Assembly: GCF_000011485.1 (NCBI RefSeq)
Contig: NC_005071.1
Coordinates: 1,677,347 to 1,741,346, forward strand
DNA: 64,000 nt
Source of the DNA: Prochlorococcus marinus str. MIT 9313
GTDB lineage: Bacteria; Cyanobacteriota; Cyanobacteriia; PCC-6307; Cyanobiaceae
Direction of reading: 5' to 3'
Shown here: one piece after another, positions 4,865-35,045 of the stretch
Position numbering within the stretch: the first letter of the stretch is position 1
Layout of the letters: each line of letters starts with the position of its first letter
Program-made: the position numbers and the translations under genes
The notes under the pieces: model-generated
Seen by the model: the letters and a program-made list of their open reading frames with translations, nothing else
Told to the model about the DNA's origin: nothing
Database searches by the model: none

Positions 4865-5080
4865 TTAATTATATTCTCCAGGCACGTCCTGCTTTCTAAC
4901 AGTCACTCGGTCCACCTTTTGTCCAGAGATACGCAGCAGCTCGTCACCTGAAAATTCATAACCAAAGCCAAAAGCAAGATTGGCCACCTCATCCGCCGTA
5001 GAAGCACTTAAGACCTGCTGGCGAAGGTCAGCATCATCCTGCATTTTGACAAGAAAGGCTCGGAGTTGCTCGAGGGACAA
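4865..5080 (-). CDS. Nif11-domain protein without a double-glycine core
   Basis: This is a 71-residue protein of the Nif11 family, small proteins that in picocyanobacteria include the leader parts of lanthipeptide precursors. The N-terminus SLEQLRAFLVKMQDDADLR and the segment VANLAFGFGYEFSGDELL are the two characteristic halves of the domain. Unlike true precursors it has no Gly-Gly cleavage site and no Cys-rich core; it ends QDVPGEYN. It is therefore more likely a stand-alone Nif11 protein of unknown function than a peptide precursor. The start is TTG at 5080, the only start in frame before the conserved beginning. Confidence 0.8.
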   Translation of the reverse strand: MSLEQLRAFLVKMQDDADLRQQVLSASTADEVANLAFGFGYEFSGDELLRISGQKVDRVTVRKQDVPGEYN

Positions 5081-30983: not shown

Positions 30984-31515
30984 TCAGGAGACGTAGTAGG
31001 TGCATCCTCTCAGCCTGGAAGTCCCTTGGGCAGATCCAAGCCAGGCTCAATCAAATCCGCGACAGCAAAAACCTGCAAGCTGGACCTTTGCCTTCCTGAT
31101 CGAGGTTTAGACCACTGCCATCGGCAGTGCCCCAGGTCATATCTGCTACCAATCCCGTGGAGGCAGACCAGCGGAGTCCTTGCCCTGGATGCACTCACAA
31201 ATACCTATGCATCTGATTAAGGGGGCGTTCCCGCCCCCTTAATCAGATGCATAGCAAAGATGCATTTAGCAGTGTGGAGCTCTGATCCATCCCAACTCGA
31301 GAACAAATCAACAGAAGCTTCCATTCACGGAGAAGAGGAAAGGCTGAGTTGTTGCTTTGTAGGTGCACTCAATTGAGCGTCACCTGCAGATCCCAGTGCG
31401 GTCAGTAGATGCTGACCACCAGAGCTCTAACCACCCGTAAACGACCAATTGCCCACAGAATGTGATCCCAAACAAAAACGGAGTGTTTTTAGACGTGACC
31501 CAAGCCTTATCTTCT
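30984..31515. other. Intergenic stretch with a long hairpin, no supported gene
   Basis: About 530 bases follow sufR. The main feature is the 23-bp perfect hairpin at 31205-31254. A leftward 62-codon frame (31010-31198), with the readable segment YDLGHCRWQWSK, may be the remnant of a gene but matches nothing I know. Part of the promoter for the DUF4912 gene should be near the right end. Confidence 0.5.
31205..31254. repeat. 23-bp perfect inverted repeat with 4-base loop
   Basis: The left arm 31205-31227 begins CTATGCATCTGATTAAGG and ends GGGCG. The loop is TTCC and the right arm 31232-31254 is its exact complement. There are no mismatches, which is unusual for an ordinary terminator. No T-tract follows on either strand. 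It may be a bidirectional terminator, an RNA processing or stability element, or the trace of a mobile miniature repeat. Confidence 0.92.
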
Positions 31516-32592
31516 ATGGCACGTCTCACCATCCGTCAGCTCCGCCAAGTAGCCAGCGATTTGGGCGTAACCCTTTACAGCCGCAAGACCAAGGAACAAT
31601 TGCTCAACGCTATTACTGTTCGTCAGGAAAAAGAAGAAAGCAAACGACTGGGGCTAGACGGTGAACTCAACTCCCCATCCAGACTCAAGTCCGATACTCG
31701 AGTGGTTTTCCTACCCCGAGATCCTCAATGGGCTTATGTCTTCTGGGAAATCTCCGAAACTGATCGCAAGCGAGCCCTATCGAAAGGGGCCAACCGGCTC
31801 TGCCTACGCTTAACCGACGTAACCGGCATCGATGACGACAAAGCACATCCCCACACACTCCAGGAAGTCTCTGTAGACAGCCACAGCAACGAATGGTACC
31901 TACCTGTTCCAATGCCTGATAGGGACTATCGAGTTGAACTCGGCTATCGCGTCGGTACTCTCTGGATGTCCCTGGCCTTTTCCTCTATAGCCAAAGTCCC
32001 AACACTCCACCCCAGCGAGCAAATCCTCGATCAGTTTGTTCCCTTCAGCCTTGAGGGCATCACAAGCAGTCCTGCACCCACCGCTACACAAGCACCAGAG
32101 CTAGAGGATGATCCCATTGGCGACTCAATCGATAGCGGGCTACACGAGCGGCTCTATCAGAGCGCCACACAACACTTCCGCAGCAGCAGGGTCGGTTCGG
32201 AAGTCTTCCAAGAACACAACGGCTTGGATAGCGATCAACGTGGTCTGAACGATTCAGGCATCGGCCTTTGGGCCAGTGGGCGTAATGAGTCCGGACTGGG
32301 TGGAGTACCACCACGCCCAAAAACCTTCTGGCTTATTGCCGACGCTGAGCTGATGATCTACGGCGCAACAGATCCTTCTGCCCGCCTAACCATCGGCGGC
32401 GAAGACATTCCTCTCTCCAATGATGGAACCTTCCGAATCCAAGTTCCCTTCCGCGACGGAGAGCAGGTGTATGCGATTGAGGCGACTGCGGCCGACGGTG
32501 AGCAGAAACGCAATATCACCTTGAACTTCCAACGGAGAACACCCACCGATAACACAAACCCAGAAGACCAGGCAGTCGCAGAATGGTTTTAA
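31516..32592 (+). CDS. DUF4912 domain protein with SAP/Rho-N-like N-terminus
   Basis: This protein of 358 residues starts at ATG 31516 (MARLTIRQLRQVASDLGVTL); an upstream in-frame extension to 31462 is not needed. Residues 1-40 resemble the small helical Rho-N/SAP fold that binds nucleic acid (LRQVASDLGVTLYSRKTKEQ). The DUF4912 domain follows at about 55-190 (LPRDPQWAYVFWEISETDR, DREYR-like PDRDYRVELGYRVG), a domain of unknown function common in cyanobacteria. A C-terminal beta-rich segment (ADAELMIYGATDPSARLTIGG) looks like an immunoglobulin-like fold. The function is unknown. Confidence 0.85.
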   Translation: MARLTIRQLRQVASDLGVTLYSRKTKEQLLNAITVRQEKEESKRLGLDGELNSPSRLKSDTRVVFLPRDPQWAYVFWEISETDRKRALSKGANRLCLRLTDVTGIDDDKAHPHTLQEVSVDSHSNEWYLPVPMPDRDYRVELGYRVGTLWMSLAFSSIAKVPTLHPSEQILDQFVPFSLEGITSSPAPTATQAPELEDDPIGDSIDSGLHERLYQSATQHFRSSRVGSEVFQEHNGLDSDQRGLNDSGIGLWASGRNESGLGGVPPRPKTFWLIADAELMIYGATDPSARLTIGGEDIPLSNDGTFRIQVPFRDGEQVYAIEATAADGEQKRNITLNFQRRTPTDNTNPEDQAVAEWF

Positions 32593-32785: not shown

Positions 32786-33142
32786 CAAACTGGGGCGAAG
32801 TCAAGGTGGAACCCTATTAGCGGCTGGTTGAGGTCAAAAGGTGTGCAAGCAAGCCTGGAAGTGGATGCTCCCTGTACTTCTAGGGTGTGCAGAGTTGCAG
32901 CAAAGTTGGATCTGTACAGGGCAATGCCCCTACGGAACTGCCCTTACCTGAAAGGATCCAGGTGGTTATCAACCATCGCGATGGTGCACGATACCGCAGT
33001 CTTCTTGATGATCACTGGCGCGGTGCGGAGCTGGGGATCACCACACGAATTCGCCACAAGCTGGAGCGGCAACTTGAAAAATGCGGAAGCGGGGTTGAAA
33101 GGAGTTGAGAGGAAGCGAATTAGCTGCGGTAGTGGGGCTGCC
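32786..33142. other. Gap at the left edge of the accessory islet
   Basis: No gene is supported. A rightward frame at 32887-33108 (GTG start, 73 codons, containing RIQVVINHRDGARYRSLLDD) is protein-like but unrecognised. The region should contain the missing C-terminal half of mpg on the minus strand; I could not find it in any frame. Confidence 0.4.
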
Positions 33143-33457
33143 TCAATTAGTCAACAAGAGAGCGGAAGGGATGGCATACACATAAAACCGCGCAGGCTCT
33201 CCAAACAGGGTTTCGTTTTGCGGTGAGCGGTGCCGGTAGCCGTGGCAGGCAGGCTCATCCTGTGAATACGCCTCCGTTTCTACAATCACGCCCCAGAGCA
33301 AACGTCCATCTGCTTGGCGTTTGACCAAACGGCAGCCCACCAATTCAGGTCCCACCATCTCGGCAGGAAGGCAGAAGAAGGTCTTGGGTAGAGCGGGGAA
33401 ATCCTTGGCGATGAGCTGGCTGGCTATGGGAGTGGCTGAAGCAACAACCTTCTTCAA
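33143..33457 (-). pseudogene. mpg: Truncated 3-methyladenine DNA glycosylase (Mpg/AAG)
   Basis: Mpg removes alkylated purines from DNA. Here only the N-terminal half remains: [27 protein letters not shown] is visible as [16 protein letters not shown], then [20 protein letters not shown], which includes the catalytic-site TEAY, and [10 protein letters not shown] family member would continue with SYGIHHCVNVV and about 100 more residues, but the frame turns into unrelated ALLLTN and stops. At 104 residues against about 190-200, it lacks half of the active site. The start is also uncertain (TTG 33457). It lies divergent from the prochlorosin gene. Confidence 0.85.
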
Positions 33458-33517
33458 CCAAGGCTGACAATGCTGCTTGCAGAAGAGACAATTGAATTAT
33501 CTATTCCCTTCTTTCAG

Positions 33518-33796
33518 ATGTCAGAAGAGCAACTCAAAGCGTTCCTCGAAAAAGTCAAAGCAGACACCAGCCTGCAGGAGAAGCTGAAAGCAGCTGCTGA
33601 TTCAGACGCAGTTCTTGTGATTGCGAAAGACGCTGGCTTTAGCATCTCTGCTGATGACTTGAAGAACGCTCAATCAGAGATTTCTGAAGAAGAGCTTGAA
33701 AGCGTCGCTGGCGGGGCCCAATCGGCTGGCGGCTGCGGAATTTGTGAGTGCGACAACAGGCAGTCAACATCATGTCATTATCCGAGTCATGGATAA
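33518..33796 (+). CDS. procA: Prochlorosin-type lanthipeptide precursor (ProcA family)
   Basis: This 92-residue precursor has a Nif11-type leader and a short Cys-rich core. Leader residues 1-66 start MSEEQLKAFLEKVKADTSLQ and include AKDAGFSISADDLKNA, ending ISEEELESVAGG, the classical double-glycine site. The core (67-92) begins AQSAGGCGICECDNRQ and ends STSCHYPSHG. It has four Cys (73, 76, 78, 86) and five Ser/Thr (69, 83, 84, 85, 90), allowing up to four (methyl)lanthionine rings. In Prochlorococcus MIT9313 one promiscuous synthetase, ProcM, dehydrates and cyclises many scattered ProcA peptides, and a LanT-type protease-exporter removes the leader. No such enzymes are encoded here, so this is an orphan precursor. 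ATG at 33518 is chosen because it matches the leader start; an upstream TTG is possible. A strong terminator follows. Confidence 0.93.
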   Translation: MSEEQLKAFLEKVKADTSLQEKLKAAADSDAVLVIAKDAGFSISADDLKNAQSEISEEELESVAGGAQSAGGCGICECDNRQSTSCHYPSHG

Positions 33797-33827
33797 AATA
33801 ATTAATTAAATCGTAAGTTTACTCATC

Positions 33828-33858
33828 AAAGCCCCTGCCACCGCAGGGGCTTTTTACT
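33828..33858 (+). terminator. Intrinsic terminator of the prochlorosin gene
   Basis: AAAGCCCCTGC (33828-33838), loop CACC and GCAGGGGCTTT form a perfect 11-bp stem continuing into TTTTTACTT. It lies 32 bases after the procA stop. The A-tract on the left arm means it could also act on the minus strand. Confidence 0.9.
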
Positions 33859-34027
33859 TCTTCAATCTCGCCAATAAGCCAACAAATCAGCCTCCGATAC
33901 CTGGCACCACTGACAACAAAATAGTCATAGCTTTCACCCATCTAGTCGCCTAATCCATCCACAAAAAATACAAGGCAGAGCAAACAAAGCCTCAGCTTTC
34001 TTTAGTCCTACATCTATTCATATCCCC

Positions 34028-34537
34028 TCAACGCAACTGCCAAATACTTCGCTCCCTATCACCATCACGGATGCCATTTGCCCTTCTAAATCTCACCGCA
34101 ACTTGATGCCACTCCTCTGGAATTTGATTGAGCCGAACATCAAATGCAAATGGGAGTTGCTGTTGACCTGGTGAGACCCGTTTCTTCTTGCTTCTGTTGC
34201 TCCTAGCGCTCTGAAGCAATCGCTTCAGCATCCTTGAGCCCCAATGGCACTTAGCCCCTCCCTTGGAGTGATGGCGATACTTCTGGCAAAACCGCTCATA
34301 TCGCCTGGAGCATCCCTTCAGGCTTGATGCCAGTTGCAGGAAACTGGGGTGCCATTCGCTGATGCCATCACACGCCAACCTGCCGTAGTGCCCGTAGTTG
34401 GAATAGGGATCATAGAAACCCTTTCGCACTCCAGCTGCTTTGGGATTGGCGTGGATGTAGCGCAAAGTATTCAGCACTCGTCTGTGGTCTTTGGTGGCAA
34501 TCGCATTCGAATGGGCAGAAGATTTGGGAGCAAAAGA
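34028..34537 (-). pseudogene. Remnant of a REP-associated tyrosine transposase (Y1/IS200-like)
   Basis: The readable part (34477-34028, 149 residues) is the C-terminal half of a Y1-type HUH transposase. VLNTLRYIHANPKAAGVRKG followed by DPYSNYGHYGRL is the segment found after the catalytic tyrosine region in RAYT-like proteins. The frame continues back to a stop at about 34537 (ATKDHRR), but the N-terminal HUH motif is missing. No flanking terminal repeats are visible. It is therefore a decayed mobile gene, not an active element. A basic tail (SNRSKKKRVSP) follows the domain. Confidence 0.75.
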
Positions 34538-34637: not shown

Positions 34638-35045
34638 ATGAGCCCGATCAAAATCCATCCTGCCTTGGCCATACTCAGCCTGGTTGCCATGTCTGCACCT
34701 GCTGCACGCAGCGAGGTGGAATACATTCCGTTCCCAACCAGAGAGGAGCTGCGCAGCATCCAGCTTCAGGCCTATGCCTGCTCTCGAGACAATGATGCGG
34801 AAGCCTGCAGCACCACCCGAGAATTGATCGATCCTTTACTAGACCACCCCCGTTTGCCATCTTCTTGCAAGGATGTGGTCTGGGGTTTGCTTCAGGTGGT
34901 CAACAAAGTCCCTAAAAACAGCTTCCAACGCAGGGATGCTATCGATCAGCCCGCTAAACGACTCTCCATCATTTGCATCAATCCAGCAAAACAAACAGCA
35001 CCTAAGCCTTCCCAACAAGGTGGTCTAGTCCCCCAACAAAGCTGA
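34638..35045 (+). CDS. Secreted hypothetical protein
   Basis: This 135-residue protein has a clear signal peptide (IHPALAILSLVAMSAPAARS, cleavage near ARS-EV) and a mature helical part with four cysteines (YACSRDND, EACSTTREL, SSCKDVVW, IICINPAK), probably paired by disulfides in the periplasm. The family is not recognised, although small Cys-containing exported proteins of this kind are common in marine picocyanobacteria. It starts with ATG at 34638. It lies at the edge of the accessory islet. Confidence 0.7.
   Translation: MSPIKIHPALAILSLVAMSAPAARSEVEYIPFPTREELRSIQLQAYACSRDNDAEACSTTRELIDPLLDHPRLPSSCKDVVWGLLQVVNKVPKNSFQRRDAIDQPAKRLSIICINPAKQTAPKPSQQGGLVPQQS

Follow-up and report, generated by a model that had tools for sequence, protein, structure and literature searches.

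The precursor gene and its flanks

The window, a stretch of 64,000 nucleotides from the genome of Prochlorococcus marinus MIT9313, contains a gene cassette whose features are compiled in Table 1. The open reading frame at its centre (33518-33796, forward strand) encodes 92 amino acids, which are divided into the leader MSEEQLKAFLEKVKADTSLQEKLKAAADSDAVLVIAKDAGFSISADDLKNAQSEISEEELESVAGG and the core AQSAGGCGICECDNRQSTSCHYPSHG. The leader exceeds the curated cut-offs of TIGR03798 (32.3 bits) and of the Pfam Nif11 profile (23.8 bits) by a wide margin, thus the match is not due to chance. An earlier reading made from the sequence alone (the sequence-only reading) had described a clean Nif11 leader ending in a double glycine, which the translation and both profile scores confirmed.

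Table 1: Features of the cassette and its flanks, in window positions.
Feature	Position	Strand	Basis
Broken PLD-like gene left of the cassette	32850..33110	+	Comparison with the intact 467-aa gene of MIT 0701
5' remnant of a 3-methyladenine glycosylase gene (mpg), carried with the cassette	33164..33457	-	PF02245, profile positions 2-71 of 181
448-bp tract shared at 100% identity with sister procA L003 (genome 914194)	33264..33711	+	Base-by-base comparison; permutation 0/200000
Nif11-type ProcA leader, 66 residues, ending in VAGG	33518..33715	+	TIGR03798, 94.4 bits; PF07862, 64.9 bits
26-residue core AQSAGGCGICECDNRQSTSCHYPSHG plus stop	33716..33796	+	ORF translation; own-genome search with 33708-33815
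Terminator-like hairpin, 11-pair stem and T-rich tail	33828..33853	+	Hairpin scan
Segment 97.7% identical (169/173) to a MIT 0701 procA cassette; match to L003 23 bp only	33885..34057	+	
Remnant similar to Y1-type (IS200/RAYT-like) transposase genes in their C-terminal part	34028..34500	-	Sequence match

A further in-frame ATG is present at 33470, 16 codons before 33518, and the frame is open there. The start MSEEQLK is common to 26 of the 30 precursors of this genome, a GTG followed by SEEQLK is found in 3/30, and the precursor L030 has no ATG, GTG or TTG at this place. Based on this common pattern 33518 and not 33470 is the conserved start. In L030 (genome 2180114) the precursor frame enters at EEQLKAF after ATC.

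The residues at positions -4, -7 and -12 of the first GG are V, L and I, as read from the sequence, and those of the second GG inside the core (core positions 5-6) are S, G and E. According to an excerpt of PMC6363468, the double-glycine protease LahT possesses a groove for Val-4, Leu-7 and Leu-12. Since the first GG fits this groove with V/L/I while the second offers S/G/E, the core-internal GG is an unlikely cleavage site. Several features by which a ProcA is recognized were found: a Nif11 leader, a GG with hydrophobic residues at -4/-7/-12, a core containing Cys and Ser/Thr, and a LanM with the CCG motif in the same genome. A second Nif11-domain gene of the window (4934-5077, reverse strand; 48.2 bits on TIGR03798) lacks GG and core and is not a ProcA.

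The hairpin scan revealed three sites in the region, which is not clearly above the 1.8 ± 1.3 sites of shuffled sequences; of these the hairpin listed in Table 1 has the longest stem. In 25 of the 30 procA genes, the window gene included, a block related to 33826-33915 occurs less than 150 bp 3' of the stop codon. Upstream of the gene the promoter scan yielded no clear promoter (3 sites versus 1.3 ± 1.2 in shuffles). A match inside the leader to Rfam SCARNA18 reached 22.4 bits, below the threshold of 40, and was taken as chance.

The cassette is situated between the broken PLD-like gene and a 135-aa ORF at 34638. In comparison with MIT 0701 the PLD-like remnant is 95% identical at its start and 70.5% identical at its end; the reading frame is disrupted close to the start, and the middle is absent. 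The gene is intact as a 467-aa ORF in MIT 0701 and in the comparison genome G003, and PLD domains were seen in the MIT 0701 protein. The 73-aa remnant itself gave no Pfam match at E <= 1. At 31462-32592 (forward strand) a DUF4912 protein with a Rho_N domain is encoded, and this DNA is kept at the same place in the genomes G001, G003 and G004. An intact mpg copy of 235 amino acids is located in the MIT9313 genome at 1909 kb (L104 795-1502).

No Pfam match at E <= 0.001 was obtained for the transposase remnant. Sequence related to it follows 14 of the 30 procA genes at a distance of no more than 700 bp, a count that includes the window gene and in which a single element serves for both L006 and L015. 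Y1 transposase frames of full length (244-282 aa, at genome positions 907354, 910121 and 2179048) follow the precursors L011, L028 and L030, and Y1_Tnp matches (E <= 0.01) were found near no other procA. Transposases near procA genes were reported in 2023 (PMC10783134, in part). For a genomic island of MIT9313, part of PMC2784084 describes a putative integration site of phage P-SS2 (912,261-912,313) and five transposases bordered by nif11-domain genes, together with the proposal of 2009 that such transposases may carry these genes as cargo. Five precursors are found between genome positions 905,453 and 914,391. As to carriage by phages, the search of 50,697 phage records gave no match, and among viral contigs 60 stretches fitted a pattern and none was confirmed.

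Core peptide and modification machinery

The sequence-only reading gave the core four Cys and five Ser/Thr. Counting in the translation verified this composition: the Cys residues occupy core positions 7, 10, 12 and 20, the Ser/Thr residues positions 3, 17, 18, 19 and 24. Because S3 is the single Ser ahead of Cys7, Cys10 and Cys12 and can pair with one of them at most, the use of all thiols takes at least two rings in which Cys precedes Ser/Thr. The sequence-only reading was therefore right that rings must mix directions or leave Cys free. A ring with Cys ahead of Ser is already known from ring A of ProcA2.8 (Cys3/Ser9; PMC10306099, in part).

Neither the number nor the order of these residues is unusual in this genome. 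Four Cys are present in 4/30 precursors (an earlier tally of 4/29 had used a pattern that left out L030), and the first Cys has no preceding Ser/Thr in 12 of the 28 Cys-bearing cores tallied. The automatic separation of leader and core cuts L013 and L023 at GA, two residues before GG, which leaves the Cys counts unchanged. The core of precursor L026 (genome 1017189) has no Cys and six Ser/Thr.

The genome of MIT9313 contains one LanC-domain gene. This ORF of 1074 amino acids carries a DUF4135 and a LANC_like domain and shows the motifs CHGAPG at 930 and CCG at 976, which we take to be the Cys-rich zinc motif of ProcM, whose numbering is six lower. Hence the precursor and a gene for its LanM-type synthetase are present in the same genome. 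The earlier reading had named the absence of any LanM gene as a ground for rejecting it, and with this gene that ground falls away. The C39 peptidase domain was matched twice, by open frames 738 and 746 amino acids long, which were identified by this domain alone. The term "orphan" that had been applied to the precursor holds insofar as the gene is unlinked from its enzyme gene. It does not hold in the sense of a missing enzyme, since one LanM-type gene with CCG and two C39 open frames are available in the genome.

For the maturation of the peptide we propose that the Nif11 leader recruits ProcM, the single LanM of the genome, which would dehydrate Ser and Thr of the core and subsequently add Cys to them. 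A C39-protease exporter would then probably cut after the first GG. In the expected product as many as five Ser/Thr may be dehydrated and as many as four thioether rings formed. On its left side S3-C7 would be the sole small ring with Ser before Cys, and Cys10 and Cys12 would use the downstream S17, T18 and S19 unless they are left free. It is very unlikely that the peptide stays unmodified, being either another Nif11 protein or a decaying precursor that has kept GG and Cys from its ancestor. The position of the cassette among gene remnants (mpg, PLD-like, transposase) would agree with decay, as would the first procA at the mpg site of MIT 0701, which has no GG (VAGS). However, the full family score of the leader, the GG with V-4/L-7/I-12, the four Cys and the hairpin terminator argue against it, and all 18 ProcAs tested were modified by ProcM (PMC11667668, in part).

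A search of the genome with the Nif11 profile yielded 38 matches at E <= 0.01. Thirty of these (L002-L031) have a core and a junction of the GG (28) or GA (2) type and are counted as precursors, and the remaining eight lack such a junction. In print, the number of ProcAs is given as 29 (excerpts of PMC10783134 and PMC9298688) or as 30 and, by a later count, possibly up to 40 (excerpt of PMC11667668). As the 30 precursors counted here equal the 30 ProcAs in print, the gene is very probably one of the approximately 30 already catalogued ProcAs of MIT9313, an assignment that is based on strain and count. For the same reason the expectation that novelty would most likely lie in the core was not borne out; MIT9313 is the very strain that the sequence-only reading had cited as its precedent. 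Four fragments of the core did not occur in the literature searched, a body of text that did not include Cubillos-Ruiz 2017. Sister cores with C3/S9/S13/C19 and with C3/C16 are present in the genome; these positions correspond to ProcA2.8 and ProcA1.1 as discussed in part of PMC10306099. Several prochlorosins were detected in MIT9313 vesicles, and the excerpt of PMC9298688 does not give their names.

No related core was found. When AQSAGGCGICECDNRQSTSCHYPSHG was compared with the other harvested cores (71 precursors in all), the best local score of 29 remained below the mean best score of shuffled sequences (32.2, n=200). At the DNA level (33708-33815), the own-genome search gave no other match better than E 2.74, and four other genomes of the genus gave none. 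Across the family (400 genomes, E <= 0.01 per genome) matches of at most 39 bases were obtained in 12 other genomes, with at most two candidates scored per listed genome, so that weak matches may escape. One of these genomes contains a 35-bp match of 89% identity in two copies, where a different frame is open. This could indicate that the core DNA stems from a different gene, read in another frame. Such a capture is extremely unlikely, as no Pfam domain was matched by the alternative frame at E <= 1, the own genome offers no source for the core DNA, and chance alone would be expected to give matches in about 4 genomes against the 12 observed, with several of the matches at other parts of the query.

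Mosaic structure of the cassette

Comparison with the sister gene L003, which lies 797 kb away and encodes the core AGVTEATIDAGGGCTFNPCCR, revealed that the locus is a mosaic of blocks. Both genes have the same 448 bp of upstream DNA and leader. The identity breaks off within the GG codons at two silent differences (33712 and 33715), and the cores beyond are unrelated. Left of the tract the mpg-related DNA (33184-33263) has 12 mismatches in 80 bp. Downstream of the core the sequences have diverged as well: what they have in common there is a weakly matching terminator (26/34), a stretch of 23 bp and, after these, the transposase remnant with 79-88% identity. When the 14 mismatches were scattered at random over the 532-bp block, a run of 448 bp was obtained in 0/200,000 trials.

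The pair with L003 is the most extreme of the 435 precursor pairs examined. Among these the four longest identical runs (448, 214, 119 and 119 bp) end 1-10 bases past the start of the GG codons. Both 119-bp runs represent the same stretch of one gene compared with two near-identical genes, which leaves three cases at most. Shorter identical runs end anywhere. Since homology ends at the GG codons, an exchange would end there too, and loss of homology alone would partly account for the position of the run ends. In a second procA pair, L010 and L011 (genome 905453 and 906436), an identical 214-bp run of start and leader precedes different cores.

The right flank and the mpg piece lead to strain MIT 0701. 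Its mpg locus consists of an intact 235-aa mpg frame followed by two procA genes (L111 and L114), the first of which has lost the GG of its leader. Their cassettes resemble the window cassette in the mpg end, in the leader (86-90%) and in the right flank (97.7% and 92.5%). They differ from it in their cores, in the one precursor without GG and in adjoining an intact mpg frame. The flanks of the MIT 0701 locus match the MIT9313 genome at 1906793-1909531 (94%) and 1917336-1920973 (92%). Between these flanks MIT9313 has about 7.8 kb of other DNA, in which no Nif11 match was found at E <= 0.01; a match to the transposase remnant is left at 1917265-1917649. As the cassette carries an mpg 5' piece and the procA genes of MIT 0701 still stand at the mpg locus, these data suggest that the window cassette derives from this locus.

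We therefore considered whether L003 and the window gene are simply recent copies of which only the core has changed since, through indels. Cubillos-Ruiz and co-workers reportedly described indel-driven core diversification of prochlorosins in 2017. The identity of the 448-bp tract speaks for recent copying, and cores are hypervariable across the set in general. Nevertheless, plain duplication is unlikely. Identity falls to 86% (68/79) in the left part of the shared block, the similarity past the core is restricted to the weak terminator match, the 23 bp and the diverged transposase remnant, and the right flank is nearly identical to the cassette of another strain, MIT 0701. Such unequal block identities point to different ages, which one uniform duplication would not give.

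The block pattern instead supports leader-sparing recombination between procA cassettes. A cassette of mpg 5' end, leader, core, terminator and transposase remnant, related to the cassettes of the mpg locus, would have moved from the mpg site to its present place beside the broken PLD-like gene. Its upstream-plus-leader tract would have been exchanged with another procA or copied from one, which left a different core in place. We give about an even chance to the general form of this proposal, namely that homologous recombination (gene conversion) lets procA genes swap the whole tract of upstream DNA and leader and that cassettes move too, so that leaders stay alike for one enzyme while cores remain private. 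None of the literature matches listed, which do not cover the main evolutionary study, mentions leader-tract exchange between procA genes, and the term gene conversion is absent from one group of these matches.

If true, a single recombination process would account both for the homogeneous leaders and for the diverse cores. The locus represents a clean test case for the evolution of the set, with identical leaders 797 kb apart and unrelated cores. Moreover, its apparent former site is now without a procA and a relative has procA genes there, which raises the direct question of whether recombination keeps leaders uniform.

Comparison with known systems

The prochlorosin family was first described in MIT9313, and the gene very probably belongs to the set behind the idea of one lanthipeptide enzyme with many substrates. 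We are highly confident that it encodes a ProcA with a mosaic cassette history, which ProcM would modify and a C39-protease exporter would probably release. The peptide is very probably an ordinary member of the known family and nothing new in kind; the mosaic, likewise, is of interest as a detail within a known system and does not amount to a new kind.

With the other ProcAs of MIT9313 the gene has in common the Nif11 leader, the GG, the hypervariable core with Cys and Ser/Thr, and the scattered location away from procM. It does not differ from them in kind, and it has its own core sequence as do the other 29. The SyncA peptides (synechococsins) of marine Synechococcus likewise combine the Nif11 leader family with a promiscuous LanM and scattered genes, as described in part of PMC10783134, but they belong to other strains and carry other cores.
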